DNA of 64,000 nt from Loxodes magnus (taxonomy: Eukaryota > Ciliophora > Karyorelictea > Loxodida > Loxodidae): the NCBI GenBank assembly GCA_946699065.1, contig CAMPDV010000282.1, positions 248,001 through 312,000 of the forward strand. The letters run 5' to 3'. The position numbers and the translations under genes were made by a program. The first letter of the stretch is position 1. Every line of letters starts with the position of its first letter. The notes beneath the pieces were generated by a model. It saw only the letters and a list, made by a program, of their open reading frames with translations, did no database searches and was not told the DNA's origin. This document shows positions 13,616 through 61,640 of the stretch, piece by piece.

Positions 13616-15160
13616 ATGCAAGACTTACTCAAATGCAGATCATGCTCAAAAGAGTTTGACTTATAAACTCGCATTCCATTTCTCCTTCCGTGTAATCATA
13701 ACATTTGCTCATTATGCCTATAATCAGAATAAAATAGAACAGGTTAAACTAGATGTCCTGAGTGTAAAGTGAACTTAAATGCTCAAACTTATAGAGTTAA
13801 TGCTTAGATAGCAAGTGAAATAGAATAAAGAACTAAGAATAAATCTGAGATTACTAATATAGTAAATAGGCTTAAGGAAAAAAAGAAGGAGTTTAAATAA
13901 GCTATCTAAATGGTTATTCAGTACTAGGCTTACATCACTCAAAAAATACGAAGTCTTATGAAATAGTTTATATTTCCAATGAGTATTTAAATATCCAAAG
14001 AACTAAAAGTAGGATTAGAAGATATTAATAATAGGATCAATAGTTTGGAGAGCTTTTTGAAAATTAAAAATTTAACTTAAATGAACATAGGAAATTCTCT
14101 TAAGAACCTAGATATGAAAGCTATTGATATTAAGCTAAATAGAAATCTTAAAGAAATAGAAATAATGGATTAGTTAAAGTAAAGATAAGTATATATTATA
14201 GGAAAAACACTTGAACTAGCTTCTCAGAATCTACCTGAAAGATATGAAGAAATTTTTGAAGTCCTCTAAGCTTAGATTAGTAAGAAGCAATATCAGAGAA
14301 CTAACGATCCGAAAGAGATTTAGTAAGAAAAGAACGGAAAGTAAAAACAAAAATCAAAAATGATTCATATATTTGGTAACGGAACTAAAAATCTTCATAT
14401 CTTTAATGTTGAAGCAGAGGAATATAAATTAGTAAAGGTAGAAAAGGAAGTTCCATATGGACATAGTAGTGTGGAATGCGATGGAAAAATATATATAATA
14501 GGAGGTGAAATATATGGAAGACCATTAAAAACAACGTGAGAAGTAGAATTTGAAGGGAGTTGTAAATAAGCAGCTGGAATGAAATAAGCTAGATATGGCT
14601 TTGGCATTACTTCTACTAAAGGAAATATCTATTCAGCAGGAGGAAGAATAAGTTAAACTCTTTCATTAAAATCAGTAGAGAGATATGTAAAAAAAAGTGA
14701 CGAATGGTAGTTTTGCACGGATACTCCTTATGAAATATTCTACTAAACACTTTTAACTGATGAACAAGAAGAAAATATTTACTCTTTTGGAGGAGTTAAT
14801 TCCTAATAGTAAACATTAGATGCAATTCTAAAATACAACTTAAAAGAGGATTAATGAAGAGAATTAGATTTTAAAATACCAGAAGCGTTTCTTGGTACTA
14901 TGGTGATACTTGAACCTCTAATAGTATTCGGTGGGTTTGTGATTGAAACAGGATAATAGTCAAATAAAATATACAAGTGATAAACTTTAACTTGGGAAGA
15001 GGGAAATCTTCCAGAAAACTGTTCGAGTTGACCAGCTACTATTACATTAGGTGATTATATCTATTCATGGATGTGACAAAAAGATGAGAGAAAGTTTTTT
15101 GTAGTAAAAATAAGCATGAAAGATATGAAGTCTTAGTAGTTAGTAGAGGTGGATTTCTGA
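13616..15160 (+). CDS. RING finger - coiled coil - kelch repeat protein
   Basis: An uninterrupted 514-codon frame runs from ATG 13616 to TGA 15158-15160 with no intron. Residues about 7-60 form a C3HC4 RING finger: CRSC, then CNHNICSLC, then CPEC. About 170 residues of predicted coiled coil follow (SEIEQRTKNKSEI, RLKEKKKEF). The C-terminal part is a kelch-type beta-propeller with repeated hydrophobic-GG motifs: IYIIGGE, IYSAGGR, IYSFGGV, LIVFGGF. Family knowledge: RING proteins of this layout are E3 ubiquitin ligases, with the propeller as substrate-binding part; the substrate is unknown. Internal TGA codons read as Trp sit in propeller positions, the last one 28 codons before the TGA stop. 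A paralogue lies at 60201. Confidence 0.88.
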
Positions 15161-15899
15161 TAGATTTAATAAACTCTTATTTAACTTTTTACTTATATTA
15201 AAACCTTAAAGAATAAGGATAATCTTTTAATCTTACTAATATTATTTAAATTCTACTACAGAGAAGTCAATTGTTCAATTCTTAATGACATCTTTAATAT
15301 AAAGTGTTAGTTCTATAAATTTTTAAGAATTATAAGTTTTAATTTTTAAAAATCTGAGCAAAAAATAAAATTTAAGATTTTCTTCTTATAAATTACTTTT
15401 AAATTCCTTAATTTCATAAAAGCTCAATCTCATAAATTCTTTCTAATTAGTTAATTCTATATTTGATTTTCATACGCAATATTTTTACCTCCATATAGAA
15501 ATCCACATTCTTAAACTATTGTTTTTAGACTTTCTCCTATAATATAAAAATCTAAGCAATAAAAAAGAATACATTTCTAATCTTCTTTTTCATTTTTTTT
15601 TTGTTTTTTATATAATATTCATATAATTTTCCCTCCTATCTTTAGCTCTTTTAATAGCGGAAATTGTTGCTATTTACACTTTTTGTCCACTTTTGTTTTT
15701 CCTCATCTTTCATACTCACCCTCTCACTGACCTTTTTAAATTATTTTTAAATTTTCTTTTCGCTTTTTAAAAATTTGAATCAGTCTTAATTTTCTTCTAT
15801 AAAAATTGAAAGTTAAAAGAAGTTAATAGTTTCAAAATTTGACATTTGCATCTAGTGAACTTAAAAATATCTTCTCTTGAACGTAAGGGTGGCTTAGTA

Positions 15900-16600
15900 A
15901 TTCAAATCTCCATCATCCTTATTTATAATTTTCACTTTATAGTTAATGCTTTTGTATCTAAAATCTATTTTTAAAATTGCTAATCTCACTATTATAAAAT
16001 ATTTTCCAATATATTTAATCCGTTTAAGTTGGTCATATTTAAAATAGGTCTTATATTATTTTTCATCTATTTCTTTCATAGATTCGGTTTCGTCACCAGC
16101 ATCTTTTATAACAATGCTACTTTTATCAAACATAGCAGCGTATTTTTATTCTAAGACATAGTTATTAATCATTGTTTCGATATCCATATGAATATTCCCT
16201 GTTATTAATTAAGTCTTTATACAATTTCTTATTTAATTTTTTTTAATTTCTTTCGTTTTATATAGAGATTAAGAAAAGTAAAATAATAAGTTTGAAAGAT
16301 TTTATTAAATTATTTCTCAATCTCATCCAATTTGCATCTCATTTACGATTATATACTATTTATTGCATCTTCAATAAAAAGAATTAAAGTTTTACTCTAG
16401 CCTATTTTCCATGTATTTATTCTAATATTCTAATATTTTAATCTTTAATCTTTTTTGTTTTATTCATATTGTATATTTGATATCCTTTACTGAACTGATT
16501 ATGCAAAGAATTCCAAGATTATTGTTCTTTATCTTATTATATGATATTCGATTAAATTAGATTGTTAATTTTATATTTTCTTCTTTATATTCGATTTATA
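15900..16600 (-). pseudogene. LINE ORF1 relic with CCHC zinc knuckle
   Basis: The minus strand at 16099-16140 reads RCYVWQKQHCYKRC, then DLFQIWPTQTDQIYWKIFYN. This matches the ORF1 copy at 51913 (RCYLCQKNHCWKK and LFRIWPTRTGQVYRKKFYN). The DNA at 16440-16490 (reverse complement) also matches 52025-52070 (CAGTTCAG(T/C)AAAGGATATC). The second Cys of the knuckle is now Trp and an adjacent frame is open instead, so the copy is dead. It shows that a long open minus frame over the same DNA is accidental. Confidence 0.6.
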
Positions 16601-17196
16601 TATTTTCTTTCTATTGTTACCTCTTTTGCAAATAAAAGTTATTACTTTCTTAATTTTTTGCTTTCCTTTCCTTTTTCAAACTTTCCAAACTATCTCTTTT
16701 ATTTTATCTTCAATTTATTTCCTGCTTTACAAAATTTTTAACAGTCTCCTTTTTCTTCTATTTTATTAATCGCTGAACAAAAAAATTTTTTTCTAAATTT
16801 TTACAATTTCTCATTAAAATTTTACTTTTATTTTAAAATTTTTTATTTATACTCTTTTTTTCTTCCTTCTCCTAATTCTCTCTTTTTTCGCGCTATTCGC
16901 TTTTCTTATATTTCACTTCATCAGTTTACTTAATTTTCAACATTTTTCAGTTTTTATATCTTGAACATTAAACATTTAAAAATATATATAGTATCTTACA
17001 TCACTTTTTTTATTTCGTGTTGCTACTCCCCTTATCCTAATTTAAATATTCTCTAAAAATAACAATAAATATTCCCTCATTGAACTAAATTTTTATAATA
17101 TAGTCTTTACTCTTTATTTATTTAAAATCTTCATACTCTATTTAAGTCTTATTATCCTATTTTACTTTGAAGACATTTACTTTAATAAACCCATAG
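16600..17196. other. T-rich stretch, nothing supported
   Basis: Very T-rich on the plus strand. It may contain the 5' part of the decayed ORF1 element at 15900-16600. No other feature was recognised. Confidence 0.25.
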
Positions 17197-17210
17197 GAAA
17201 TTAATTTAAT
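17197..17210. repeat. target-site duplication, left copy
   Basis: GAAATTAATTTAAT at 17197-17210 recurs at 18165-18178, flanking the minus-strand retroelement between them. Length of 14 bp is typical of target-primed LINE insertion. Confidence 0.7.
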
Positions 17211-18164
17211 AATAATATTAATTTTAGTTTTCCGTTTTAGGGATTTCCAACCCCGTCAGGAATACAGTAGTTCATACTCCCTGCTGTTAAATATAAAAGT
17301 TCGGGTCGTCCAATTTTAGCGAGATTGGGAACTCGGATTTTTCCAGGTTTTCCCTCCTTTAACTTGCCTTGGTTCCATCTTAATCTTGTATATTGAACCA
17401 TCCTGGTTGCGATACATTCTTTTCATCCTTGCTTCTTCTTTTGTTGTTCTTCTATCCAATACTTTCTTTATTTCTATTAGAATTTCTAACACTTCCGATA
17501 AAAATGTCATACGCTTCCACAGCAGAAGCATTTTTTTTTATTTTGAATTATTTTCCTTGATTTGTTTGCTCTTTCTACGCTTCGATTTCCATTTGTATAG
17601 CTCCAGTTTCGCTTTACTCTTTCTTAAAATTTTACAATTTCTCTTCTATTTTTTCGAGTCTGTTATCCAGTTCAGTCTGTTTCTAAAGCTAATTTTAGGA
17701 TTCGTTAGTCTGACTTTGTGAGATATCCCAAAAGGCGTTAAGATCTCTCTTCTAGGACATAAGTCTTGACTCAATTCCTTCTGCCAGATCTAGCTTTGCC
17801 ATCAGCATATCATTATCCTTCTTCAATCTCTTGACCTCTTCCTGGAGGTTCAGTACCACTTTGATGAGCTACTCCATGCTCATCTGACCAGAAGGGTTGA
17901 ACTCTGATACCTCCTGGTGTAGAACAGACTTCATCTGTTTCCTCGGTTTCTCGCTTGAGGTTGGAGTTTCCGTGTGTATATTCTTCAAGGTTGGCTTTCG
18001 TTCGTTTTGTTAGAGTCCAAGTTGTTAGTTCAGTGTTGGTTAAGGTTGTGATAGAGAAGATTGTTAAGATTATTAAGACTTGGCTTCTTGCTTCCTCCCT
18101 TCCTTTTGGTTTAGGAAGAGGTGGTATAGAAGCCTGACTTGAAACCTTCAACCATTTTTTTAAT
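17211..18164 (-). mobile_element. ORF1-only LINE-like element with target-site duplication
   Basis: A 954-bp element, clearly GC-richer than its surroundings, sits between two 14-bp direct repeats. It encodes one gag-like ORF1 from ATG 17934 (minus). The first part is coiled coil (MEQLIKVVLNLQEEVKRL). A CCHC knuckle CFCCGSVWHFYRKC at 17489-17530 follows, then a basic tail. The knuckle lies one frame off, after a run of nine A (17531-17539), so the protein is broken there unless the ribosome slips. No endonuclease or reverse transcriptase is present. The complete-looking ends make it either a non-autonomous ORF1 element or an internally deleted LINE. It inserted just downstream of the kinase-MORN gene at 18234-20420. 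A related copy starts with MKQLIKQVLNLQKEVKKL at about 39171. Confidence 0.75.
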
Positions 18165-18178
18165 GAAATTAATTTAAT
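18165..18178. repeat. target-site duplication, right copy
   Basis: Second copy of GAAATTAATTTAAT, on the 5' side of the minus-strand element. Confidence 0.7.
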
Positions 18179-18233: not shown

Positions 18234-20420
18234 TCATTAATGTAAAAGAAAGCATTATTAATTATTTATTTCTTGCTATTGTAAACAAATATTTATTTTC
18301 TTTAATATTCTATATAAAATTTAATTTTTAGATCTAAAACAATCTTTTTATTAACTTTTACTCCTTTCATTCCAATTATTATATGCTTCTTATTCTATTT
18401 TTTTGTTGCATTACCAATCGCCTTTTTATATATTCCCGTTATTGCAATAATAAGTTCCTTTGCCTGATTTTTAATTGTTTAATCATTATCCTTCGTATCT
18501 ATCTTCATTTGCATATTTTAAAACTCCATATCCTATTCTTTTGTCTTCTTAAAAATATCCTTCGAATATATCACCATTAATATAATATAATGCTCCTTTG
18601 CCTTCTTTTTTACCATTTAATCATTATCCTTCATATCTATCACCATTTTAATATTTAAGAATTCCATATCCTTTCATTTTGTTTTGCCATTATTATTCTT
18701 CATAACTATCTCCATTATTGCATAAATAAATTCCTATACCTTATCTTTTATTATTCAAGAATTACCCTTCGTATCTATCTCCATTTGCATATTTAAAAAC
18801 TCCTTATCCTGATTTGTTATCTTCTTATCAATCTCCTTCGTATATATTGCCATTTTTGTAATAGTAAGTTCCTTTACCTTATCTTTTATCGTTTAATCAA
18901 TATCCTTCATATCTATCACCATTTTAATATTTAAGAATTCCATATCCTTTCATTTTGTTTTGCCATTATTATTCTTCATAACTATCTCCATTATTGCATA
19001 AATAAATTCCTATACCTTATCTTTTATTATTCAAGAATTACCCTTCGTATCTATCTCCATTTGCATATTTAAAAACTCCTTATCCTGATTTGTTATCTTC
19101 TTATCAATCTCCTTCGTATATATTGCCATTTTTGTAATAGTAAGTTCCTTTACCTTATCTTTTATCGTTTAATCAATATCCTTCATATCTAGCTCCATTT
19201 GCATATTTAAAAACTCCTTATCCTGTTCTTTTGTCTATTTATCAATCTCCTTCGTATATATTACCGTTTTTGTAATATTAAATTCCTTTTCCTTATTTTT
19301 TATTCTTTAGTCATTATCCATCGTATTTAGCTCCATTTGCATATTTTAAAACTCCTTATCCTGTTCTTTTGTCTACTTATCAGTCTCCTTCGTATATATT
19401 ACCGTTTTTGTAATAGTAAGTTCCTTTGCCTTATCTTTTTCCATTTACAATTTATCCTATATATCTATTACCATTCTCGAACTTCATTTCTTTTTCTACT
19501 TTTTATATAGATGCAGTCGAATTTTATGATTTATCTTCTTCCTTTATTTATATCTGAGATATATTCTATACTTTCATTGATTGTTCTTTGCTATTTAAAT
19601 TTCTCTTTCCTTCTAACAACATTTTTTATAGATTTTCCAAACTTATCCTCTATTAAGCTTCGCTTCTTCAGCACTACTATATACACTCTTTAAACTCTTA
19701 AGGACAGTCTTAAGTTATTTACTCCCTTTCTCCTTTTTTCACTCCTTCTATAAGAATGTTTTCTATCACATTCATATACGGTAATTTTCTCTCCGCTATC
19801 TCCCACATAGTCATTCCTAACGCATATATATCAGATTAAAAACTATATTTAGGCCTAAATCCTATTAGCTCAGGTGCCATTCAACATAATGTTTCTTATT
19901 TTTAGCTACTTCTCTACTAGGATATTTTTTATCTTGACAATAATTTTTATTTTGACAAGCCAAAGTCCCATATTTTAGCTTTTCAATTTCTATCCAATAA
20001 AACATTATTACTTTTCAGGTCTCTATGTATTATCCCTTTTAAATGAATGTATTTCAAGCCTTCAACTATATCTAAAGTTATCTAATACCTTTTATTTCAA
20101 TCTATCTCTTCATTACTTTGTAATAAATTGAATAAAGATTAATACATTAGCTCTATTACCAAACTCACAGGAGAAATACAATATCCATATAGTTTAACCA
20201 GATTTGGATGTTTCAACTATGACATTATTTCTAGTTCAGTCTCCAGTTCTATCTAAGCATTGTAACTTAAATTCTCTTCGTAAAATTCTTTTATCGCAAC
20301 TTCATTTACTTCATTCCATTTTCCACCATATACCACTCCAAAGCTTCCTTATCCTAATATTTTTACTTTTTATAATCTTTCATAAGGAATTATAAGTCCC
20401 TACTAATTACTAGCTCCCAT
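18234..20420 (-). CDS. protein kinase (TKL-like) fused to C-terminal MORN repeats, copy 1
   Basis: An intact 728-codon frame runs from ATG 20420 to TGA 18234-18236, with no intron. Residues about 15-280 are a kinase domain: glycine loop GQGSFGVVYGGKW, VAIKEF lysine, catalytic HRDLKSNNVLLD, DFGLSK, then WMAPEL (Trp encoded by TGA, 19881-19883) and SDIYALGMTMWEI. All catalytic residues are present, so it should be active. The short style of loops and the SLG/ALGM-W-E motif suggest the TKL group. After a Gln/Lys linker come about 16 MORN repeats of 23 residues (NGNIYEGDWQ-KRTGQGVLKYA), which in other proteins bind membranes or act as scaffolds. A 276-bp stretch is duplicated almost perfectly (see separate entry). 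The paralogue is at 47737. Confidence 0.9.
18626..19191 (-). repeat. 276-bp in-frame tandem duplication inside the MORN array
   Basis: The stretch beginning ATCCTTCATATCTATCACC is repeated almost perfectly at an offset of 276 bp (AAGA of the same landmark at 18660 and 18936). 276 bp is four 69-bp MORN units (92 residues), so the frame is kept. Near-identity points to a very recent duplication. Confidence 0.8.
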
Positions 20421-22899: not shown

Positions 22900-24170
22900 A
22901 GTTGCTCATTTGTATAATTTTATTAGTATAGTTCAGGTCTTAGTTTTGACTATCCAAACTTCTTAATTAATATTAAAAGAGAGAAATTTACAAAAGAAAA
23001 TTAACTAGTGACTCTTCCAAGATGGATAGGTGAGTACTAACATATCTCGACAATATAAAACAAAATACCTTAAAAAAAGCTAAACAACTGAATGAAGGGA
23101 ATAGTGTAAGAAAATTAAATAAGAATGATGATTTGAGTAATTTAACCATAGAAAAAACCCTTTGAATGGATTAAGCAGACTTAAGAAATAATATTCCATT
23201 TAATAAGAATTGTCATGATACTTTAAAGAGAGTTTTTAAATAAATCAAACATGATACCAATTTTCACACTACTGAAGGAAATATCAGATCCTGATTTAAT
23301 TTAAAATAGAAGTACGAAACTAAGATGGAAGAACTAGACCAAGACCCGTGAGTAATTTAGCACCAAAGTGATAAATTTTAATAAATAAAAAAAGAAGTAA
23401 AAATAATTGAGTCCACTTCGAAGCAACCGACTTAGAAACAACCTAATAACTCTATTAAGTTACTCCAAAAAAATAGAAAGATGAAATTAAAATTATTCAA
23501 GAACAAATAATAAAGTTGTAGTAGCAAATTTTATAAAATAATCACTTAAAGACTAAAAAGGATACCCACTGCAAAGTTATTTATAGAACAATTCTAATAA
23601 TAATAATAATTCCCGTAAATTACCTATCTGAAATTAAATAAATAATATCAAAGAGAAATAATTAGTATATACAAACTCAGAACATAAATCTACAACTTTC
23701 GAAAAGACCTTCAAGACAGATATTATTCTATCGAGAATCCCCACTGCGTATGTGGAGAATTTGATAAGTTTGAGCATATTCTGGATTGCGATTGCTATAT
23801 AGAAATGCGGGAATGGATATCAGCAAAGATTGGATAATGTGATATTAGAAGACTAATAACATATGACCAAAACTATATCAATTAATTTCCAAAAAACAAA
23901 TTAGAATACATTGATCTACAAATAAAAAATTTTCATAGGATGTTAATTAAAAGAAAATTAGAATTATTTGAACTGGAAAAAGATGATTGATTAGAAAATT
24001 CTACAACTAAGGGAGAAGAATTTAAAGATCAAGAAAAAGATGAGGAGAATGAGGAAGATAAAGAGAAGGAAGAAGAACATGAAGAGTAAAAAGAATAAAA
24101 GAAGGAATAAACTGATGATGAAGATGATCAAGTTGAAAAAGAAGATGAAGATGAAAGTGTGAAGAAATGA
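22900..24170 (+). pseudogene. C-terminal part of a LINE ORF2
   Basis: In one plus frame ending at TGA 24168-24170 the translation contains YKLRTQIYNFRKDLQDRYY, then CVCGEFDKFEHILDC with the first Cys codon at 23745. A K/R-LRTG-like segment followed by C-x-C-x8-H-x3-C is the usual C-terminal zinc-binding motif of non-LTR retrotransposon ORF2 proteins. After it comes a helical stretch, then a strongly acidic Glu/Asp/Lys tail. Upstream of about 23550 the frame becomes uncertain and no reverse-transcriptase domain can be read, so this is a 5'-truncated or decayed copy. It is the only ORF2 C-terminus I can identify in the window. Confidence 0.55.
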
Positions 24171-24750
24171 AAAATTTTTAAATAAAATTATAACATCTTG
24201 AATTGAAGGAAGCAATTCCAACAATGAAATATTACAAGACTATTTTAGTAAAATTTAAATTTAAAGTTGAAGTAGCACAAAAATCTTTTGAAGAAATTGC
24301 AGATAAAATAAGATAATCTACAAGAAATTAAAAAAAAATTTTACTACTTCTTGGCCAAGTTGAAATGAAAATAAGGAGAAGTAGCGTAATTCCTGTAGTG
24401 AAATTGTTTTAAACTATGGAATCTTGAAAATTGCTCACTATTTCAGGGTTTAATAATTTTAAAAAGAAATATTCATTTTCCTAAAATTTTTTAATCTGAA
24501 TTTCTTACCTAATTATTATGTTTTTACAGTTTATTCATTATTCATAGAAATATTTGATTTTGTATCTAAAAAATACTTTTGTATTTATGACATCTTTTAG
24601 GAATATCTTATATTCCCTTCACATTCACAAATTTTCTAAATTTAAGTTTTATTAATTAATTTTAAAATAAGAATTTAGAAAGGCTTATATTTAATTAGTT
24701 GGCTTTAAAATGAAAATGTTAATTATATTTAATTTATTCAATTCTTCTAG

Positions 24751-26994
24751 TCAAAAAATCAGGCAGCGACATCTTGATTTTTTCACGATCTAAACTTAGT
24801 TCATGCTAGCTTCTCTTTGTAAAAGTTATTCTAAATCTTTTTTCAAATCCTATTAAGTCATATTTGAATTTTATCTTAGGATAGTATCAACAAAACTTTT
24901 TAAGCTTATTAGTCTATATTATTCTTTCTTTGAATAATGGAAATATCATGAAATGTCTCTCCTCCTTTTTAGCATTTTAAACTGTTTCTTATTTTCTTCA
25001 TCTTAAGTTTATATAAAATCTTAGTATTTTTATCTTAACTATTAATCTTATTCCGTTAAAGGGTTATAAACGCCGTATAAAAAGATAAAAATTTCTCCAA
25101 AACGGTTTCCGTTTACTTCAAGTTAGAATTTATGCTAATATTTTCCTGAATCTTTCTCCGTTTTAATTTCTATTTCCACTATTTCGCTTTAATTTGGATT
25201 TAAGTCTCCTATTTTGTAATTTTATACCAAATTATCTATATTTTCTATCGAAACGTTTTATGGCCATTGCTCTTTTCCAATATTTTATACTTCTAACTAT
25301 ATTTTAATCACTTCTTCATTTAAATAATTATTAAGCCCTTATTTTAACTTAATAGAACCTTAAGGTAATTACGTCACTTCAAAGTGGACTTAGCATTCAT
25401 TTGAAATATTTTACTTATCACTTTTCTTAAGTACAAACGTCTGAACTACAGAGTTTTCCTCATAACTAATCAAATTAGTCTTTATCTTTTTCTTAATAAC
25501 TTCTGAGGAATTTAATACTCTATCAACTTAAAAATACTATTAATTTTCTACTAAGAATAAACTCACAGATTTGTCCCAGTTTTCTTTTCCAGTATTTTTT
25601 ATTTTGCTAATTTATAAAACTTACAATTCTAGTTCAACTTGCTAACCGCTATATACTCTTTAATATTAATTAACGCATTCTATTTTTCCCTGTATAAAGA
25701 TTTACTTCATATATTGAACTATATTCACTGTTTCATTCCTCCTAATATGTTTTTTATTATTTTTCGTTTATATTCTGAATGCTGGATTGCACTTGATTCA
25801 TTTTTAACTTTTCATCTTTTTCTTTTAGTATTTTATTAAGTTCTTAAACGCAACTTTCATGTTTTAATTACATATCATGTAGTTAGTCTTGATATTATTT
25901 AGCATAGGCAGCTTTTATCTATTAGATCTAATCTTATTAATAATTATTATAAGGGTCATATTATTCTTAGCTTTAAATAGGGAAAGCTAAATATTACTAT
26001 TATTGATTATCTTCGTAATAACCTTAATTTAACTGTTAAATTTAATTTTATTAATGATATGCATTAGATAGTGTTACTTGTTACTTTTAAGTTCCCATCT
26101 ATATTATTTAATCTTCTTGGTTACTATCAATTTTCATTTTCATTCCCTCAGTTTTTTATGCTAAAATAATAGGTAAAACTTACGAACAATCTATTACCAG
26201 TTTTAAAATTTTTAATCTTATAAATAATTCTTTTCTAATTGTACTTGCTAGATTTAGTTTGGAAAATCTTGCTCTTTTAATTTTACTTCTTCCTAAAAAA
26301 TAAGTTAAAAGTTGTTTCTTTATTCTGTGTCATTAATTATTTCTTCTTAGTATTTTTATCTTAACTAGTACATTATTCCTGGCTTTCTTTACAAATAATG
26401 CTACTCTACTTTTTCAGGATTATGCTTATATATCCAAGCTATTTTATGCGCAACTTATTCTTCTTGACTGCTTATTTTATTTTCCTTCGAAAAAGAAGCC
26501 TAACCTTTATTAAAATATGCAAGCAACTGTAAACACTTAGATTATAGCTCGTCCATTTGTTTCATTCGCTAGCACATTTATTCCATTTCATTTAGACTTT
26601 ATCTGTACTTTTCTTCTTTTGTATTCATTTTTAAGTTTCTATCTAATACATCTAGATCTCATTGAATCTACTTTAATAAGTCGTAATCCTCTCTAGGTTC
26701 TAATATTCTAGCTATCTTTTCTCTTTCTCTAAACTTCTAAATTATTTGAGTAGTTTTTTAAGTTTTTTCATCGAAATCAGCAAGATCTGACCTGGTTATT
26801 TTACTAAGTTCATTTAAGTTTTACATAATCCAATTGATGATATTCTCGCATCGCTATGATACTAGGCCATAGAGAGAATACTAGATATCTGCCTGTTAGC
26901 ATAGCTATATAGTTTTGGTTAGCTATTATATCCCATAGTCAAATTTATTAGCTTTGTTAAGCATTTAGACATTAGACTAAAAGATAGGTTACAT
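24751..26994 (-). CDS. coiled-coil protein with tandem NBR1-type Ig-like domains, copy 2
   Basis: The best-preserved member. From ATG 26994 to TGA 24751-24753, removal of a 23-nt intron (26161-26183) and a 16-nt intron (25690-25705, gtaaatctttatacag) gives exactly 735 codons including stop. ATG 26964 is an alternative start in the same frame. Residues about 1-250 are helical (NIINWIMQNLNELSKIT, REREKIARILEPREDYD). A Gln-rich linker follows, then a short coiled coil (VQELNKILKEKDEKLKM). Two Ig-like repeats come next (KIKNTGKENWDKSVSL; VQNIGKEQW, SGKYQHKFQLEVNGNRFGEI). The second closely follows the NBR1 FW-domain pattern N-x-G, W-P, G-x-Y and FG. The tail is Lys/Arg-rich and ends CRCLIF. NBR1 domains elsewhere serve in selective autophagy and cargo binding; no ZZ, PB1 or UBA domain is visible, so the role is open. 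Confidence 0.78.
25690..25705 (-). other. 16-nt intron of NBR1-like copy 2
   Basis: gtaaatctttatacag on the minus strand, with GT and AG ends. It lies at the same codon junction (YE/GK) as introns 5831-5846 and 36161-36176 in the paralogues, and its removal restores the frame. Confidence 0.8.
26161..26183 (-). other. 23-nt intron of NBR1-like copy 2
   Basis: GTAAGTTTTA...TTTTAG on the minus strand. The same position and length are seen at 6523-6545, 6293-6315 and 35689-35711. Removal restores the frame into the Gln-rich linker. Confidence 0.8.
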
Positions 26995-27059
26995 TTTTAT
27001 TAATGTTAAAATAGAAAATCAAAGAAGCTAAGTATTAGAATGCTTAGTCACTAATTTAT

Positions 27060-34879: not shown

Positions 34880-37115
34880 TTAGCCTAATTATTAGTCTAA
34901 TCCATAAAAACCTAGTGAGACTAATCAATTTTATCATGTGATATAATAGCTAACCAAAACTATTGAGCTATGCTAACAGCCAGATATAAAGTATTCTCTC
35001 TATGACCTGGTATCATAGCGGTGTTAGAATATCATTAATTGGATTACGGAAAACTTAAATGAACTTAGTAAAATAACCAGGTCAGATCTTGCTGATTTCA
35101 ATGAAAAAACTTAAAAAACTACTCAAATAATTTAGAAGTTTAGAGAAAGAGAAAAGATAGCTAGAATATTAGAACCTAGAGAGGATTACGACTTATTAAA
35201 GTAGATTCAATGAGATCTAGATGTATTAGATAGAAACTTAAAAATGAATATAAAGGATTAAAAATACAGATAAAGTCAAGATGAAATGGAATAAATGTGC
35301 TAGCGAATGAAACAAATGGACGAGTTATAATCTAAGTGTTTGCAGTTGCTTGCATATTTTAATAAAGGTTAGGACTCTTTTTCGAAGGAAAATAAAATAA
35401 GCAGTCAAGAAGAATAAGTTGTGCATAAAATAGCTTGGATATATAAGCATAATCCTGAAAAAGTAGAGTAGCATTATTTGTAAAAAAAGCCAGGAATAAT
35501 TTTCTAGTTAAGCCAAAAATACTAAGAAGAAATAATTAATGACACAGAATAAAGAAACAACTTTTAACTTATTTTTTAGCAAGACAATAAGCTACTATAA
35601 TAATAGTTACCGTAAAAATTCTTGCTAGTCTAATAAACATGAGATTAAAATAAATCTTATGAGTTTGAAAACTTATAATTGAACTAAAGTAAGTATTTTA
35701 TATTATTTTAGATAAATAGAGTGAGGAATTAAAAAATGATTCCGACTCATAAGCTACAATACTTTAGAAGGGATATTAGAAGGAAAATTTAGCACCATCT
35801 GAAGTATATCATTAATAAAATCAAATTTAACAGTTAAATTAAGGTTATTAAGAAGATAATCAATAATAGTAATATTTAGCTTTCCCTATTTAAAACTAAG
35901 AATAATATGCCCCTTAAAATAATAATTATTAAGAAGATTAGATCTAATAGATAAAAGATGCCTATGCTAAATAATATCAAGACTAACTACATGATATGTA
36001 ATTAAAACATGAAAGTCGCGTTTAAGAACTTAATAAAATACTAAAAGAAAAAGATGAAAAGTTAAAAATGAATCAAGTGCAATCCAGCATTCAGAATATA
36101 AACGAAAAATAAAAAACATATTGGGAGGAACGAAACAGTGAATATAGTTCAATATATGAAGTAAGTCTTTATACAGGGAAAAATAGAATGCGTTAATTAA
36201 TATTAAAGAGTATATAGCGGTTAGCAAGTTGAACTAGAATTGTAAGTTTTATAAATTAGCAAAATAAAAAATACTGGAATTGAAAAGTGAAATTTGCCTG
36301 TTTATTTAATCTTGAATGAAGCACAATAACTTTGAAAAATAGACCAAAATCTATAACCATAAGAATCTACTATAAAGAAGATATAAATTAGTTTTATTGA
36401 TTTTAAAGAAACAAAATTCTTTTAAAAGTTTGCACTTAAGAAAAGCAATAAGTAAAATATTTCAAATGAGTTAAAAGTCTAATTTGAAGTAATGTAATTA
36501 CTTTAAGGTTCTATTAAGTTAAAATAAGGGCTTAATAATTATTTAAATGAAGAAGTGGTTAAAATATAGTTAGAAGTATAAAACATTGGAAAAGAGAAAT
36601 GGTCATAAAATGTGTCTATAGAAAATATAGATAATTTGGTATAAAATTACAAAATAGGAGACTTAAATCCAAATTAAAGCGAAATAGTGGAAATAGAAAT
36701 TAAAACGGAGAAAGATTCAGGAAAATATTAGCATAAATTCTAACTTGAAGTAAATGGAAACCCTTTTGGAGAAATTTTTATCTTTTTATACGGTGTTTAT
36801 AACCCTTTAACGGAATAAGATTAATAGCTAAGATAAAAATACTAAGATTTTATATAAACTTAAGATGAAGAAAATAAGAAACAGTTTAAAATGCTAAAAA
36901 GGAGGAGAGATATTGACTGATATTTCCATTATTCAAAGAAAGAATAATATAGACTAATAAGCTTAAAAAGTTTTGTTGATACTATTTTAAGATAAAATTC
37001 AAATATGATTTAATAGGATTTGAAAAAAGATTTAGAATAACTTTTACAAAGAGAAGTTACCATAAACTAAGTCTAGATCGTGAAAAAATCAAGATGTCGG
37101 TGCCTGATTTTTTGA
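34880..37115 (+). CDS. coiled-coil protein with tandem NBR1-type Ig-like domains, copy 3 (5' end uncertain)
   Basis: The plus-strand paralogue of the genes at 4892 and 24751. The frame is conserved from at least 34881 to TGA 37113-37115 once introns 35689-35711 (23 nt) and 36161-36176 (16 nt, gtaagtctttatacag) are removed. The domain order is the same: helical N-terminus (SQRCQNIINWITENLNELSK), Gln-rich linker, short coiled coil, Ig-like repeat 1 (KIKNTGIEKWNLPVYL) and repeat 2 (VQNIGKEKW, SGKYQHKFQLEVNGNPFG). It ends CRCLIF like copy 2. No in-frame ATG is seen where copy 2 has one; the aligned bases read AAA. The start must therefore lie upstream behind another intron, or has been lost. Repeat 1 and the preceding linker have diverged most. 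Confidence 0.65.
35689..35711 (+). other. 23-nt intron of NBR1-like copy 3
   Basis: GTAAGTATTT...TTTTAG, at the same site as the 23-nt introns in the other two copies. Splicing gives NQNKQSEELKND in frame. Confidence 0.75.
36161..36176 (+). other. 16-nt intron of NBR1-like copy 3
   Basis: gtaagtctttatacag with GTAAGT donor and CAG acceptor. Splicing joins SIYE to GKIECVNQ in frame, as in copies 1 and 2. Confidence 0.8.
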
Positions 37116-40170: not shown

Positions 40171-40249
40171 CTTTTCAGTGTACCTATCCAAGTTAAGATA
40201 TAATAATATTTTAAAATATTATGATTAAGGTTCTCAAACTTTAGCTTAC

Positions 40250-40560: not shown

Positions 40561-40697
40561 ATTTATTATGTATGTTATGTTCTCTTTTTTTCGTTATTTT
40601 GCTTAAAGATTTTATTTCTTCTTTAGCCAAATTAAATGAAAGCATTTATTCTTAAATCACTTTACTAAAACTGTCTTATATTATATAATTATATAAA

Positions 40698-47736: not shown

Positions 47737-50282
47737 ATGTAGGCTAAGTAGTAGGGATTAATAATTCCTAGTGAAAGCTTATAAAAGATTTAAAAAATTG
47801 GATAAGGAGGTTTTGGAGTGGTCTATGCTGGAAAATGGAGCGAAGTGAATGATGTTGCGATAAAAGAATTTTATGAAGAGAATCTAACTTAGAATGCTTA
47901 AAAAGAAATAGAAACTGAGTTATAAATAATGTCTTAAATGAAACATCCTAATGTGGTTATGTTATATGGATACTGTGCTTCTCCTGTCAGTTTGGTAATG
48001 GAGCTTATGCATCAATCTTTATTTAATTTGCTACAAAGCGATTAAGAGATTGACTGAAGTAGAAGATATTAAATAGCTTTAGAAATAGTATAAGGATTAA
48101 ATTACATCCATGTAAAAGGGATAATTCATAGAGACTTAAAAAGTCTTAATGTTTTAATTGATGAAAAGTGAAGGCCTAAAATATGTGATTTTGGTTTATC
48201 AAAATCAAAATTAGCTTCCAGATAAAAAACATCATAGTAAGGAAGTTCTTAATAAAAAGGTACTTTAAGTTGAATGGCACCAGAGTTGTTTTAAATGAGG
48301 CCAGAATATAGCTTCCAATCAGATATATATGCATTGGGTATAACTATGTGGGAAATAGCGGAAAGAAGGACACCATGGGAACATGTGGTAGATAGTGTGC
48401 TAATAGAGGGAGTAAAAGGAGGCGAAAGGGAATAATTAAGTTCAGATTGTCCTTAGGAATATAGAGAGTGTATATAGGAGTGCTGAAAAGGGGATGCTAC
48501 GTAGAGAATTTGTTTGGAAGAATTATAATAAAAATTGTTAGAAGGAAAGAAAAAATAAACAAATATTGATTTGAAAACGAGTGCATAGAAAATATCTCAT
48601 TTAAAAGTAGGAAAGTAAAACAAAACAAAAAAATTGTTTTTATCTGAATAGAAAGAAGAAAAATAGTATGAGAATGGTGATCGATATAAAGGCTAAATAG
48701 TAAATGGAAAGAAATAAGGAAATGGTACCTTATATTACAATAATGGAGATATATACGAAGGAGATTGGTTAGAAGATAAGATAACTGGCAATGGAGTTTT
48801 AAAATTTGCAAACGGCGAAAGATATGAAGGATAATGATTAAATAATAAAAAATAAGGTAAAAGTACCTTATATTACAATAATGGAGATATATACGAAGGA
48901 GATTGGTTGGAAGACGAAAAAAAAGGATATGGAGTTTTAAAATGCGAAAATGGAGATAGATATGAAGGATAATGATAAAGAGGTATGGCATAAGGTAAAG
49001 GAACAATTTATTGAAATGATGGAGACATTTACGAAGGAGATTGATTAGAAGATAATATAATTGGATATGGAGTTTTAAAACATGTGAGTGGAGAAAAATA
49101 CGAAGGATAATGACTAAATGGCTAAAAATAAGGTAGAGGTACCTTATATTACAATAATGGAGATATATACGAAGGAGATTGGTTGGAAGACGAAAAAAAA
49201 GGATATGGAACTTTAAAATGCGAAAATGGAGATAGATATGAAGGATAATGATTAAATAATAAAAAATAAGGTAAAGGGATTTTTTATTACAATAATGGAG
49301 ACATTTACGAAGGAGATTGATTAGAAGATAAGATCTCTGGAAATGGAGTTTTAAAGTATGCAAACGGAGATAGATATGAAGGATAGATGGTAAATGGTTA
49401 AAAATAAGGAAAAGGTACCTTCAATTATATCAATTGCAATATATATGAAGGAGATTGATAAGAAGATAAGATAACAGGTTATGGAATTTTAAAATATGCA
49501 AATGGATACAGATACGAAGGATAATGACTAAATAACTAAAGATAAGGTAAAGGTATCTACTATTACAATAATGGAGACATTTATGAAGGATATTGATAAG
49601 AGAACAAGAGAACTGGATATGGAGCATTAAAACTTGCAAATGGATATAGATACGAAGGATAATGATTAAATAATAAAAAATAAGGTAAAGGTACCTTATA
49701 TTACAATAATGGAGATATATATGAAGGAGATTGGTTAGAAGATTAGATCTCTGGAAATGGAATTTTAAAATATGCAAATGGAGAAAGATATGAAGGATAG
49801 ATGATAAATGGCTAAAGATAAGGTAAGGGAACTTGCTATCATAATGATGGAAGCATTTATGTTGGAGATTGATTAGAAGATTAGATCTCTGGAAATGGAA
49901 TTTTAAAATATGCAAATGGAGAAAGATATGAAGGATAGATGATAAATGGCTAAAGATAAGGTAAGGGAACTTGCTATCATAATGATGGAAGCATTTATGT
50001 TGGAGATTGATTGGAAGGCAAGCCAACTGGATACGGAGTTAAAAATGAGCAAATGGAGAAAAATACGAAGGAAATTGACTAGGAGGTTAAAGATAAGGTT
50101 AAGGGATTTACTATTATAAAAATGGAGATATTTACGAAGGAGATTGGTAAGCAGGCAACAGAACAGGAAATGGAGTTTTTAAATATGTGAATGGATTAGT
50201 ATTAAGTGGAAAGTTTATAAGGGGAAAGTTTTAGGATTTGCATAAAATCTTTAGTTAGAATTTAAAAGAAAATAAAAGTTGA
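47737..50282 (+). CDS. protein kinase (TKL-like) fused to C-terminal MORN repeats, copy 2, with one frameshift
   Basis: The paralogue of 18234-20420. From ATG 47737: MQAKQQGLIIPSE, then glycine loop [43 protein letters not shown] (Trp = TGA at 48271-48273) and [14 protein letters not shown] linker and about 20 MORN repeats of 23 residues follow ([19 protein letters not shown]). Near 50037-50050 one repeat has lost 1 nt relative to its neighbours (GTTAAAAATGA where GTTTTAAAATAT is usual). The MORN frame is therefore broken: in frame the protein stops about 60 codons later, whereas the old frame continues to TGA 50280-50282. Sequencing error, a fresh mutation or frameshifting are all possible. 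The kinase domain itself looks intact. Two MORN units are duplicated at a 138-bp offset (49741 and 49879). Confidence 0.85.
49741..50016 (+). repeat. 138-bp tandem duplication of two MORN units
   Basis: GATTAGATCTCTGGAAATGG and the following sequence recur 138 bp later almost without change. 138 bp is two 69-bp units, so the frame is kept. Confidence 0.8.
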
Positions 50283-51560: not shown

Positions 51561-51912
51561 GATAAATATAATATCATAGTTGTAGTTAAGTTCTTTAAAA
51601 CTATATCTTTATTTTAGCAAAGAAAAATAAAAATTTTAAAGTGGGTTTTTGAATATAAGGTTAATAGAAAAGTTTTAAAAGCATTGCTAACATTAAGAAT
51701 TTTAGACAAAAAGAATCATATATAGATAGCTCCTTAAGAGATAGTTTTAATCTTTAATCTTTAAGTACTATTAAATTTATTTACAAAAGAGATTCTTAAA
51801 TATTAGCTATGTATTTTAATGCGAATCTTCAGAAGCTTACTTTTTATAAGTTGATTTTAGAATATATTCCTAATCTTAAATAAGCCTTTTATTTTATTAT
51901 ATATTAAATAAA

Positions 51913-52745
51913 ATGGCACCAAAGAAATAATAGACCTCTATTAACGAATACTTGAAAAAATAAGAATAACCTAATTTAATTGAAGAATAGCCTTAATAAG
52001 ATAAATATTAATAATCTAAGGAATCCTTTGCATAATCAGTTCAGCAAAGGATATCAAATATCCAATATGACTTGAAAAAGCAAAGATAAAAAATAGAAAA
52101 TTTAGAAAACTTACTAGAAAAATTAATGGAATAATTAAAGCTATAATTCCCATCCATAGATGAATCATTAAATAAAATCTAATCGTAAATAGTAATTAAA
52201 TTGGAATAAATTGATAAATAATTTAACGAAGTCCCTCAAATGTTCCAATTTCATTTTTCTTAAATTGAATATAAAATAAAGCAACTTTAAGAAAAACAAG
52301 AATAATAACAATAATAATTTAAAAATTATAAGATTAATAAGATTAATAATCAAATATCCCAATGGAAATCGAATCGGAACTCTAATTATAAGAAATAAAT
52401 AAGATCAATTACTATCCCAAAAAGATTCGGTGCTATTTATGCTAGAAAAATCATTGCTGGAAGAAACAAGAAATTGAAAAAATTAACAAGTAATAAATAT
52501 TAGACTAACTTTTCAGAATATGACCAACAAGAACAGGATAAGTATACAGAAAGAAATTCTACAACTCAAGAAACAACGATTTTTATAAAAATGGAAGAAG
52601 AAACTATAACGATAATTAGTGGATGAGGGAGAGACAAGGATGGCGGACTAATGTAGTCCTACGCAATCCTTTAGTTCAGGAAAGAGCAGGAACAAAAACA
52701 AGTGAACCTTGGAGCTCTTTTCTAAGACTATAAACTTAATTTTAT
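51913..52745 (+). pseudogene. LINE ORF1 relic with CCHC zinc knuckle
   Basis: ATG 51913 gives MAPKKQQTSINEY and a coiled coil (ENLENLLEKLMEQLKL), then poly-Gln. The knuckle CYLCQKNHCWKK (first Cys codon 52431) and LFRIWPTRTGQVYRKKF lie in another frame (offset 518 nt), so there is one indel between them. Homologous to 40698-41420 and to the minus-strand relic at 16.1 kb. The knuckle's last Cys is replaced. Confidence 0.6.
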
Positions 52746-56379: not shown

Positions 56380-59300
56380 AGGAAAGATAATTAAAGCTCT
56401 CTAGAAATACTTTAGAAAAGAGCAGAAACTAGAACTTCTAATTAAAACTACGTTCAGCGTGAGATCTATGAACTAGCTCTCAAAATAAGTCTAAGAATTA
56501 ATAAAGCTGAAAATCTGAAAAGTCTGAAATAGAAGTTGAGTTATGACTACGAAATACTTGAGAGCTCTGATCTAGTTCTCAAACGAAGTCTAAGTATCAA
56601 AAAGCTGAAGAAATAAAAAGACTGAAATAAGAACTTATAGTTAAGACTTAGTTATAATCGAGTGCTCTGATCTAGTTTTCAAAATAAGTCTGAGTTGAGT
56701 TAAAACTGAAGAATTTAAAAAACTGAAAGATGAACTTATAGTTAAGACTCCGTTCATCTTAAGAGCTCTAATCTAGTTCTCAAAATAGGTTTAAAATCTA
56801 AAAAAGTTTGAAAATCTGAAAAGTTTGAAAGTAGAAGTTTATATAAGATTCCATTCTACTTAATAGCATGCTCAAATAATTAAAATAATCTAAGTATTCA
56901 AAGCTGAAGAAGTTAAAAGACTGAAATTACAAATTTGAGTTTAGTATCTACTCATCTTAAGAACTCTGATCTAGTTCTCTAAATAAGTCTCAGTATCGAA
57001 AAACTGATGAAGTTAAAATACCGATATAACAACTTTGAGCGAAGACTCGGATTCTCTTTAGAACCTTTCACAGTATTAAAATAAGTATGATTAACATATT
57101 GCTGACTAACTATTAAAACTGCAGAATTTAAGTAAAGACTCAGATATACTTTAGAGCTCTTATCGAGTTCCTAAAATTAGTCTGAATATCGAAAAGATGA
57201 TGAAGTTAAACTACAGAAATAGAAAATCTGAGGGAAGACTCCGATATTTTTTGAGTTCTGAAATAGTTTATAAAGCAATTCAGTGTTGCGTTAAAGCTGA
57301 AAATCTTAAAAAACTGAAATAAGATTTTGTGAATAGAAACAGAAATACTTAATAGCTCTGATCTAATTATAAAAAGATTATGATAGAGGTAAAACTTAAG
57401 AAATTAAAAACTAAAAAACGGACTTTAAGCGAAGAATCCGACATATTTTAGAAATCTGAACTAGTTTCAAAAATTAAAAGTATCGAAAAAGCTAATTAAG
57501 TTAAAGTACTGAAATAAATCTTTGAGTTAAGACTCAGATAATCGTGCGTTCGACACTAGTTCTAAAAAAAATTGACAAACATATTGCAGATAAACTTAAA
57601 AAACTGTTAACAGACTTTAAGTAAAGAATCCGTCATACATAGGAGTTATGATCTTTTATTCAAATTTAATCTGAATATCGAAAGTGCTTAAATACTAAAA
57701 GACTGTAAGAAAAAATATAAGATTCGAATCCGTTTCCATTGAGAACTCTGATAAAAATAATAATTAATCTGAATATCGAAAATGATGAAAAAATAAAAGA
57801 TTAAAGAAGAATTTTAAGTTTGGAATCCGTTAATCCTTATGAACTCTGATACTGCTCTCAAAAAAGTCTGGGTAGAGATTAAGCTATAGAACTGTAAGAC
57901 TGTAAGAAAATCTTTAAGTTTGGAGGCCATTATCCTTGAAAGCTCTTATCCAGTTCTCCAAAAAGAGACAAGTAAGATGTAAAGCTTAATAACTAAAAGA
58001 CTTTAAGAAGAACTTTAAGATTGCAATCCGTTATCATTGCGTGCTCGGATCTATTTCTATAGTTATATCTGAATATCGAAAGCGCGGAAAATACAAATTG
58101 ACTGTAAGATGAACTTTAAGTTAGGAATCCGCTTTCCTTTAGATTTGTTCAAATCCTGCCATTAACTGAGAATCGAGATTACTTAAATTTTAAGAATCTG
58201 TAAGAGAAACTTAAAGTTTAAAATCAGTTAATCGTTAAATGCTCTGATCAAGTTATCCGAAAAAGTTTGCTGATCTCTAGCTTAAGAACTATAAGTCTGT
58301 AAGAAAAACTTTAAACTTGGAATTCGTAAATCCTTAAAAGCTCTAATCAAGTTCTCCAAATTTGAACTGAGAATCGAAGGTGCTAAATCTTAAAGACCGT
58401 AAGAGAAACTTTAAGTTATGAATCTGTTAATAGTTAAAAGCTCTTTTAAATTTCACCAAAAAAGTTTGCTGATAAAAAGCTTAACTACTAAAAAATTGTA
58501 AGAAGAACTTTAAGTGGCAATCCGTTATCATTGCGTGCTCGGATCTATTTCTATAGTTATATCTGAATATCGAAAGCGCGGAAAATACAAATTGACTGTA
58601 AGATGAACTTAAAGTTTGAAATCCGTTATCCTTTAGATTTGTTTAAATCATGCAATTGAACTGAGAATCGAGAGTGCTTAAATATTATAAATCTGTAAGA
58701 GAAACTTTAAGTTTAAAATCAGTTAATCGTTAAATGATCTGATCAATTTATCCGAAAAAGTTTGCTGATCTCTAGCTTAAGAACTATAAGTCTGTAAGAA
58801 GAACTTTAAGATTGCAAACCGTTAACATTGCGAGTTCGGATCTTTTCCTTAAATTTAATCTCAATATGCAAAGTGCTGAAATACTAAAAATCTATAAGAT
58901 GAACTTTAAGTTCGGAATCCGTTATCCTTGAGAGCTTTAATCAAAATCTCAAAAAATGTCTGTGTAGGGTTAATTTTTATGAACTGTAAGACTTTAAGAA
59001 GAACTTCAAGTTTGGAATCCGTATCCTTTAGAGCTCGATTGTTTTCTAAAGCATAGTCAAATTATCGAAAGTGCTGAAATCTAAAATACTGTAAGATGAA
59101 CTTTAAGTTTTGAATCCGTTATCCTTGCGAGCTCTGATCAAATTTTCAAAAAATGTCTGGATAGATGATAAGCTTAAGAGCTTCAATACGTTATGAAGAA
59201 TTTAAGTTTGGATTCCATTTTCTAGATTGCTCTGTTCTTTTTCTCAAAATATGTCTGAGTTACGAATAAGCAGAAGTACTTAAAGAATGAAAGTTCAACT

Positions 59301-59640: not shown

Positions 59641-60200
59641 TTTTACCATATTCTTACTTAAGATTTCTTAGAAATGCAAAATAATTTCATTTGTTTGCAT
59701 TTCTGCTGGAATGAGTCTTTGGTTGAGTTCTTTTCTTCTAAAATTTTTTAAATTGTTAAATTTTTCTCTTTTAGCAGTTCCGAGCTTCGTATTCTCGTCT
59801 ATTTTTTTCTCATTCTTTTCTTCCTACATTCTAAAGATTTTCAAAGAGCTCCTGTCTTAGTAAATGTTCTAACTTAGCTACTTTTTTTGATATTAAGATT
59901 AGTTAAAGATTCTATCCCTTTTTTAGTGCATTCCTCCTAGTAGTTTTTAAAGATTTTAGGATAGAGATGTTTTTGTTAATTAGATAATAAAAAATGTGAT
60001 TAAGTTGTAAAGCTGGTTGGTTTTTTAAATTTAGCAAAATGTATTGGTGCGGATTGTAGATAGATACTTGATATAAGAGGTGAATATTGTAGTATGTATG
60101 TAATGATAGATATTTGAATTTATAATGGTTAATTATAATTTTTGATGGTAACTGTTATAAATTACCTTTATAAGCTTTTTTAATCTAAATAATAATAAAA
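59641..60200. other. intergenic, nothing supported
   Basis: AT-rich sequence between the satellite and the RING-kelch gene. It presumably holds that gene's promoter, but no motif can be named. Confidence 0.3.
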
Positions 60201-61640
60201 ATGTAAGCGTTACCAAAATGCTTAATCTGCTAAGAAGATTACAACTTAACTAATGCTCTTCCAACTGTCTTACCTTGTGGACATATTTACTGTGGTTTGT
60301 GTTTGAATACTCAGTTCTGATTATAAGGCATAATGTAATGTCCTATTTGTTAAAAAGGATTCCATTTTAGATTTGAAGACTTACCTTAAGAAAGTGATTT
60401 AATAAGAATGATATTTTAAAACTAATAATACATATAAAAGATTTAAGATGCTAGATAGAAATTAAAAGAGATAAGGAAGTAAATTATGCAAAAATCTAAA
60501 ACCATTACAACCAAATTATCTAACATTACTAATACTCTCATTATACCATATACTAATATCATCAATACCATTAACTACAACTAATAACACTAAAATATTA
60601 TACAATCATCCTAATTCCCTATTTACTCATTTCTAAAACCAACTCAAATCCAAACTATAACAGTCTAACTATATTCCACTATATAACCACCTTTACTACT
60701 AAACCCTAAATTAACTTCAAATTATATCACACAAATAAGAAAAAAACTATAATACAATACAAAGTAAGAACAGTTAAACACTAAACAGGCTAATTAACAT
60801 AAACTAACCTAGTAGCAACATTTTATTCAATCTAACTATATTCACCTTTTTAATTGGACGATTTAAAAATTAAGTTTATTTAACATTTAAACTGAGAAAT
60901 TACGATAAGTCTAAGTTTAAATTATAATTCCAGACTATAGTAAAAGTATAGAATATTAAAATAAGTTATATTTAATTGGAGGAAAAAACTAAAATTAAAA
61001 GAAAGGAATAAAAGAAACTTGATAGTTCGATTTCGAAGGTAATAATACAAAACTTAGTGATCTAAATGAGGAAAGATATTAATTTGGATTAGCAGCAGCT
61101 TAAAATTATCTTTATGTGGTTGGAGGAATTACTAATATAAATAAAATGTTATAATCAGTAGAAAAGTTAAAGATAGGAAACTAAAGTAAATGATAAAAAT
61201 GCTCTTAATTTCCATTCTTAATAGCAGGTTAAACTTTAGTAGTAGATAAAGATGAATAAAACATTTATTCAAATGGAGGTGCAAATTAGAAATTATAAAC
61301 TTTAAAAGATATATGAAAGTATAACATATAGAATGATAGATGGAGTAAGTAAAATTTGAATCTTCCTGAAGCTGTTGCTTATCCTATAGTTTCTTTAGAG
61401 CCTTTTGTCATATTTGGAGGTTGAAAAAATTTTTCTACGGAAGAATATTTAAGAAGAATATATAAAAGAAACAAATAATAATGGCAATAAAGTTAAATTT
61501 TTAAAGATGTTGAATATTTAACAGAGATGAAAATAAGAGGTGTCTATGGATATGTTTTTGCTTATGAATAGGAAAGAGTTTCAATAATGAGGATTGATTT
61601 AGAAAAGTTGAGTTATAGAAGTGTTAAAGGGGATAACTGA
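60201..61640 (+). CDS. RING finger - low-complexity linker - kelch repeat protein
   Basis: An uninterrupted 479-codon frame runs from ATG 60201 to TGA 61638-61640. The N-terminus is a C3HC4 RING finger: CLIC, then CGHIYCGLC, then CPIC. A short helix (RQKLKEIRK) and a Thr/Asn/Gln/Ile-rich linker of about 120 residues with almost no G on the coding strand follow (60487-60850). The C-terminal half is a kelch-type propeller: LYLIGGK, LYVVGGI, IYSNGGA, FVIFGGW. It is a paralogue of 13616-15160 with the same domain order but a disordered linker in place of the coiled coil. Likely an E3 ubiquitin ligase. Internal TGA (Trp) codons occur in the propeller; the last is about 70 codons before the stop. 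Confidence 0.87.

Follow-up and report, generated by a model that had tools for sequence, protein, structure and literature searches.

A 64-kb stretch of probably karyorelict DNA in which UGA encodes tryptophan and ends six genes

All the karyorelict ciliates examined by Seah et al. in 2022 reportedly use genetic code 27 of the National Center for Biotechnology Information (NCBI), possibly with a small minority of UAA stops. In this code, as described for Loxodes magnus (PMC11441545) and Parduczia sp. (PMC4967479), UAA and UAG are sense codons and UGA both encodes tryptophan (Trp) and terminates translation; in NCBI code 28, described for the heterotrich ciliate Condylostoma magnum (PMC4967479), all 64 codons are sense codons with the same residues. 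According to a published model, nearness to the 3' end of the mRNA decides where termination occurs (PMC4967479). Here, we describe a stretch of 64,000 bases (hereafter, the window; 26% GC, 74% AT) in which reading UAA, UAG, and UGA as sense codons reveals seven genes of three families: two RING-kelch genes (kelch1 and kelch2), two kinase-MORN genes (kin1 and kin2), and three NBR1-like genes (NBR1-A, B, and C). Very probably, this is nuclear DNA of a Loxodes-like karyorelict that uses code 27, with UAA and UAG as glutamine (Gln) and UGA as Trp within genes and as the stop at their ends. The ambiguous code is a system already known from karyorelicts.

Tryptophan at UGA

Under the standard code, the 64 kb contain a single open reading frame (ORF) of at least 200 amino acids, which lies antisense to a MORN array. 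Each of the seven genes has many of the usual stop codons in frame, and the longest open stretch per coding sequence is 28–64 codons, of a total of 479–847. Because the standard code leaves only these short stretches and that one ORF, the open frames are not a product of chance. The hand-curated gene models comprise 4720 codons, are open only when UAA, UAG, and UGA are all sense codons, and contain 372 UAA, 128 UAG, 77 CAA, 24 CAG, 53 UGA, and 33 UGG codons.

The MORN arrays give the clearest view of UGA. With UAA as Gln and UGA as Trp, their units read YEGQW and KKQGKG, as the sequence-only reading of this DNA had proposed, and kin2 reaches its Pfam MORN score (Table 1) under this code. In the 31 repeats matching a fixed pattern of 23 residues (whose four fixed Gly columns were skipped), 20 of the 21 UGA codons fall in the Trp column, as do all five UGG codons, and the repeat profile scores 80.4 for Trp against 41.2 for phenylalanine at UGA. 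For residues other than Trp, this test is weak: in its control, 13 of 25 sense codons were assigned their standard residue. When UGA is read in different ways, the summed MORN and PK_Tyr_Ser-Thr scores of kin2 fall from 517 bits with Trp to 466 with Tyr, 390 with Cys, 376 with Arg, and 353 with Gly.

The kinase domains were compared with a profile of 105 of the 120 listed homologues (those spanning 180–330 amino acids), which had themselves been found with a protein translated by code 27; UAA, UAG, and UGA were masked in the window kinases when these were aligned to it. Over eight UGA sites, the profile gives Trp 21.6 nats and Tyr 5.9; in a control, it assigned 31 of 35 ordinary codons their standard residue. 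It had been proposed that both kinases carry UGA at the invariant Trp of the WMAPE motif. UGA does stand there in both, but the Trp is not strictly invariant: the profile position (W 0.43, Y 0.28, F 0.13) is a conserved aromatic.

Codon exchange between paralogs was counted in the NBR1-like and kinase-MORN genes (the kelch pair was omitted) in columns with at least six of ten similar neighbours; the three NBR1 pairs are not independent of one another. UGA faces UGG six times, where 0.2 would be expected, and the conserved Trp of the motif NIGKE.W is UGA in NBR1-A and UGG in NBR1-B and NBR1-C. Several details weigh against Trp: (i) a separate Pkinase model scores kin2 at 185.4 with UGA as Tyr and at 184.5 with Trp; (ii) some NBR1 UGA codons face Lys, Arg, Cys, or UAA in the paralogs; and (iii) some kelch UGA codons face Asn, Leu, Leu, and Arg. 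Other UGA codons in the NBR1 and kelch genes face phenylalanine. Taken together, the evidence is decisive that UGA encodes Trp.

The same placement bears on the idea that these are decayed pseudogenes of an organism with an ordinary code, in which the in-frame stops would mean nothing. Such decay might explain the one frameshift found in each of kin1 and kin2, as well as the degenerate repeats elsewhere in the window. The kin2 frameshift lies at a run of A within the MORN array (50035–50045, + strand, near 50040) and could be either a sequencing error or real. Decay would, however, scatter stops at random sites, whereas in the five genes tested UGA is found mainly at conserved Trp sites and UAA at Gln-like sites, and the NBR1 paralogs retain 68–82% protein identity across 710–712 codons. 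We therefore give the pseudogene explanation next to no weight.

Glutamine at UAA and UAG

The assignment of UAA draws mainly on the paralogs and on domain scores. In the exchange counts, UAA faces Gln codons at 1.76 times expectation, against 0.59 for lysine (Lys) and 0.38 for glutamate (Glu), and the most frequent partner of CAA is UAR (UAA or UAG); for UAR pooled, the values are 1.43 for Gln, 0.53 for Lys, and 0.46 for Glu. When UAA and UAG are both changed, the two main kin2 domains together score 517.3 bits with Gln, 511.4 with Glu, 473.2 with UAA as Lys and UAG as Glu, 465.7 with Lys, 426.3 with Leu, and 336.7 with Tyr. The Kelch_1 score of kelch1 behaves similarly (Gln 75.0, Lys/Glu 73.0, Lys 72.0, Glu 70.8, Leu 63.7, and Tyr 55.4 bits). 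Across single kelch and RING models, Gln, Glu, and Lys differ by up to about 7 bits in either direction; Kelch_6, for example, prefers Gln (52.3 against 45.6). A homologue search with the RING-kelch protein returned one match among 6094 candidates, too few for a codon test.

UAG is less clear. Changed alone, and summed over the MORN and PK_Tyr_Ser-Thr domains of kin1 and kin2, the Kelch_1 domain of kelch1, and the NBR1-B domain, it gives 1086 bits as Gln, 1079 as Glu, and 1072 as Lys, which places Gln ahead by 8 and 14 bits, respectively, over four genes. The kinase profile puts Gln ahead of Lys by 0.8 nats at UAG (8.1 against 7.3), and UAG faces CAG twice between paralogs (0.8 expected).

On the contrary, the following observations speak against Gln. 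Kelch_2 prefers Lys (51.2) to Gln (44.6), the Pkinase model is level for Gln and Lys at UAR, and the kinase profile gives Lys 16.1 and Gln 15.4 nats at UAA. In the MORN columns, where the repeats are not independent, Asn, His, and Glu rank above Gln at UAA. For UAG alone, the paralog exchange values are Met 1.43, Trp 1.06, Glu 0.63, and Gln 0.62.

The ciliate PL0344 uses a code in which UAA is Lys and UAG is Glu, and one may ask whether one or both codons mean Glu or Lys here, with UGA as Trp. The form least excluded has UAG as Glu and UAA as Gln: UAG faces GAG six times against 2.5 expected, and the Kelch_1 domain of kelch1 scores 76.2 with UAG as Glu against 75.0 with Gln. Glu also falls no more than 6 bits below Gln over the two main domains of kin2, and Lys is level with Gln for UAA in the kinase profile. 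Set against this are the UAA exchange values and the UAR partner of CAA given above, the loss in kin2 of 52 bits when both codons are Lys and of 44 when UAA is Lys and UAG is Glu, and the cost of 8 or 14 bits when UAG alone is Glu or Lys. We consider a Glu or Lys meaning very unlikely. The earlier proposal that both codons are read as Gln thus stands in full for UAA, which is well supported; for UAG, Gln is the favoured reading, which its own data do not settle and which leans on the kinship of this codon with UAA.

Termination at UGA

Six gene ends are corroborated, and all six are UGA. NBR1-A, B, and C share one aligned UGA after the residues ...C.C.IF; over the five windows that precede this codon, NBR1-A has 20–29 of 30 bases identical to B and C, against 15–16 of 30 in the next window, and NBR1-B and C remain alike for about 24 bases past the codon, and then diverge. 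The two kelch paralogs (26% identity) align end to end up to both of their UGA codons (13613–15160 and 60198–61640). Both families bear out the ends first proposed for them, except that NBR1-A lies outside the interval to which those ends had been assigned. The evidence for the kin2 end consists of its frame and of a fall in GC. This fall is common to the six genes (kin1 was omitted from the test): GC is 23–37% before the terminal UGA and 12–18% in the 60 nucleotides downstream. In contrast, the 60 nucleotides after the 53 internal UGA codons have a mean GC of 26.6%, and three of the 53 fall to 18% or below; in 100000 random draws, no set of six coding windows reached a mean GC as low as that of the six ends.

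Two points weigh against this picture. The end of the kelch alignment is aided by the Trp:Trp match of the two terminal UGA codons themselves. In addition, kin1, for which an end at UGA had likewise been proposed, has no UGA at the position aligned with the kin2 stop, and its tail is shifted in frame relative to kin2; its first in-frame UGA past the array (18236–18234) lies in AT-rich DNA and has no support from homology. The proposal therefore holds for kin2, and kin1 is left without a corroborated end.

In five of the six genes, an in-frame UAA or UAG lies no more than 20 codons ahead of the stop; in the NBR1 genes, such a codon is followed by conserved residues and therefore does not end translation there. 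At the six corroborated ends, UGA terminates and UAA and UAG do not. With 53 sense UGA codons and six such ends, the claim that one codon both elongates and terminates is confirmed. That UGA is the only terminator agrees with all six ends, none of which is UAA or UAG, but six ends from three families cannot prove the word "only", and so small a number would be compatible with rare UAA stops.

These results match code 27, in agreement with the original interpretation. Code 28 would assign identical sense meanings and differ in that UAA and UAG also terminate, and a minority of such stops would be compatible with six ends. We nevertheless prefer code 27, because all six corroborated ends are UGA. 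Code 28 also fits poorly with two further observations: the final 20 codons here are not poor in UAG, unlike those of C. magnum (PMC4967479), and the frame requires introns of 23 nucleotides, whereas those of heterotrichs have 15–16 (PMC11441545). A heterotrich with code 28 is thus a very improbable source.

How, then, might code 27 tell one UGA from another? In the six genes, the last sense UGA lies 28–90 codons upstream of the stop, and in their final 20 codons, UGA occurs 0 times (1.15 expected), UAA 4 times (9.6 expected), and UAG 6 times (3.4 expected). An expectation of 1.15 is too low for the depletion of UGA to count as evidence by itself, and it tells against a firm conclusion that all these near-stop counts are small and that the NBR1 paralogs are not independent. 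By eye, no fixed motif surrounds the six stops beyond what paralogs share. In L. magnus, the 20 or so codons upstream of the stop are depleted of UGA and UAA but not of UAG (PMC11441545); in C. magnum, UAA, UAG, and UGA all grow rare ahead of stops (PMC4967479). The pattern in the window appears to fit the published 3'-end model.

From what has been published on C. magnum and on karyorelicts, we suppose that reading the codon as an amino acid would be the default and that termination would win at a UGA close to the 3' end of the mRNA. A short AU-rich 3' untranslated region, together with a poly(A)-bound protein, may favour eRF1 over the Trp tRNA there, and the deciding factor would be the distance to the 3' end rather than a local motif. 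Two opposite meanings of one codon imply that translation can draw on the place of a codon in the message as well as on the codon itself, and its high share of sense UGA would make the window a good place to test what distance from the 3' end is needed for UGA to be read through.

Gene set, lineage, and known systems

The seven genes and the features within them are listed in Table 1. Models from a self-trained gene finder were rejected, as they misread the frame of both MORN arrays and contained long, doubtful introns.

Table 1. Genes, introns, and selected codons of the window (codons in DNA letters)
Feature	Position	Strand	Codons and stop	Pfam domains
RING-kelch gene 1 (kelch1)	13616..15160	+	514 codons; 5 sense TGA; stop TGA 15158-15160	Kelch_1 75.0 bits; zf-RING_5 27.9 bits
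RING-kelch gene 2 (kelch2)	60201..61640	+	479 codons; 5 sense TGA; stop TGA 61638-61640	Kelch_KLHDC2 72.0 bits; zf-RING_UBOX 37.1 bits
Kinase-MORN gene 1 (kin1)	18399..20420	-	674 in-frame codons; 13 sense TGA	MORN 253 bits; PK_Tyr_Ser-Thr 196 bits
Sense TGA at Trp of WMAPE, kin1	19881..19883	-	codon 180	
Kinase-MORN gene 2 (kin2), TKL-type kinase and MORN array	47737..50282	+	19 sense TGA; stop TGA 50280-50282	MORN 320 bits; PK_Tyr_Ser-Thr 197 bits
Sense TGA at Trp of WMAPE, kin2	48271..48273	+	codon 179	
NBR1-like gene A (5' boundary of model provisional)	4892..7296	-	stop TGA 4894-4892	
NBR1-A introns	6545-6523 (23 nt), 6315-6293 (23 nt), 5846-5831 (16 nt)	-		
NBR1-like gene B (5' boundary of model provisional)	24751..26934	-	stop TGA 24753-24751	N_BRCA1_IG 44.6 bits
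NBR1-B introns	26183-26161 (23 nt), 25705-25690 (16 nt)	-		
NBR1-like gene C (5' boundary of model provisional)	34938..37115	+	stop TGA 37113-37115	
NBR1-C introns	35689-35711 (23 nt), 36161-36176 (16 nt)	+		

The NBR1-like genes (4892–7384, 24706–26999, and 34849–37160) are local duplicates on both strands, with arms of the inverted copies 77–98% alike and a likeness that extends upstream of the apparent start. All three copies have an 18-nucleotide GTAAGT...AG stretch (5765–5748, 25624–25607, and 36242–36259), which may be an intron or, its length being a multiple of three, coding. Pfam gave no match to two NBR1-like pieces. The two TKL kinase-MORN genes are oppositely oriented and separated by about 27 kb; the 120 MORN homologues listed likewise include proteins that combine kinase and MORN domains, among them one from Tetrahymena malaccensis.

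An open frame at 23754–24170 (+) has an acidic tail, carries a CxC...H...C motif, and ends at UGA; by eye, it resembles the terminal part of a LINE-type polymerase, although it has no Pfam match over the cut-off. A related piece lies at 46101–46430 (-). Three mutually related degenerate pieces at 15799–18111 (-), 39080–41528 (+), and 51907–52745 (+), one with a zinc-knuckle-like motif by eye, are perhaps remains of the first ORFs of retroelements; the parts of them tried against Pfam gave nothing over the cut-off. A broken frame at 30151–32566 (-), also without a Pfam match over the cut-off, has a VFLLDAYDE stretch that resembles, by eye, the Walker B motif of STAND NTPases. Diverged direct repeats occupy 57805–58945, where nothing else has been assigned, among them a 141-nucleotide pair that is 94% alike and three 167-nucleotide copies, two of which are 62% and 91% like the reference.

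Within the 64-kb window, there are no tRNA genes and no Rfam matches. Three further 5-kb stretches (six frames) and ten smaller pieces contained no Pfam family over the cut-off, and scans against viral contigs found no relatives, with search patterns that may not suit this genetic code.

With regard to lineage, the frame requires introns at three sites, one of 16 nucleotides (NBR1-A, B, and C) and two of 23 (A and B; A and C). Loxodes introns have a mode of 17 and a mean of 19.3 nucleotides, with a negligible share under 16, whereas about 95% of heterotrich introns have 15 nucleotides and the remainder 16 (PMC11441545). The lengths seen here, at three sites only, are within the Loxodes range and disfavour a heterotrich. 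Counting against L. magnus itself is a coding GC of 25–30%, compared with 33.5% in that species (PMC11441545). A Loxodes-like karyorelict is the best assignment of the source and, in our view, a highly likely one; it draws on the code, the intron lengths, the composition 3' of the genes, and the depletion of codons near the stop rather than on a marker gene.

Of the organisms outside the ciliates in which all three codons have new meanings, Amoebophrya sp. ex Karlodinium veneficum, a relative of dinoflagellates, deserves mention, as it has the same proposed sense meanings, contextual stops, an AT content that is high for its genus, and introns that are mostly GT/AG (PMC12005148, PMC6394959). 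It is less AT-rich (65.2%, PMC12005148, against 74% here), and its terminator is not known from these sources. In 14 dynein alignments, UGG is strongly favoured over UGA (PMC6394959), whereas UGA makes up 53 of the 86 Trp codons here, and in-frame stops occur in about half of its gene models (PMC12005148), whereas all seven genes here have many. Such a source is highly improbable, even more so than a heterotrich.

Another similar code is that of Blastocrithidia, which gives all three stops a sense meaning and reads UGA as Trp (PMC12153298); there, however, UAR is Glu and UAA also serves as a stop, whereas here UAA is Gln and UGA is the stop. C. magnum, in which UAA and UAG terminate as well (PMC4967479), differs from the window in its ends, none of the six here being UAA or UAG, and in its use of UGA, which is 0.042% of codons there and 1.12% (53 of 4720) here.

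Heavy sense use of UGA is the unusual point of this locus. UGA accounts for 62% of the Trp codons (53 of 86) in the seven genes, and outside the MORN arrays, it is 29 of 54 Trp codons and 29 of 3799 codons; seven genes of three families are too few for a genome-wide statement. In Parduczia, UGA is 0.120% of codons (PMC4967479), and the parts of the Loxodes literature cited here gave no figure for its sense use. It is conceivable, but unlikely, that the window comes from a code-27 organism, possibly of an undescribed lineage outside the sampled karyorelicts, in which UGA is the major Trp codon and yet the sole stop; if so, the ambiguity would be heavily used there and not marginal. To the described systems, the window adds gene-level evidence from paralogs and this high share of sense UGA. 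Among known systems, it comes closest to the karyorelicts of code 27, which likewise have very AT-rich sequence past the stop and tiny introns (PMC11441545, PMC4967479); it differs from L. magnus in its lower coding GC and, on small counts, appears to resemble Loxodes in that UGA and UAA, and not UAG, are scarce just before the stop (PMC11441545).

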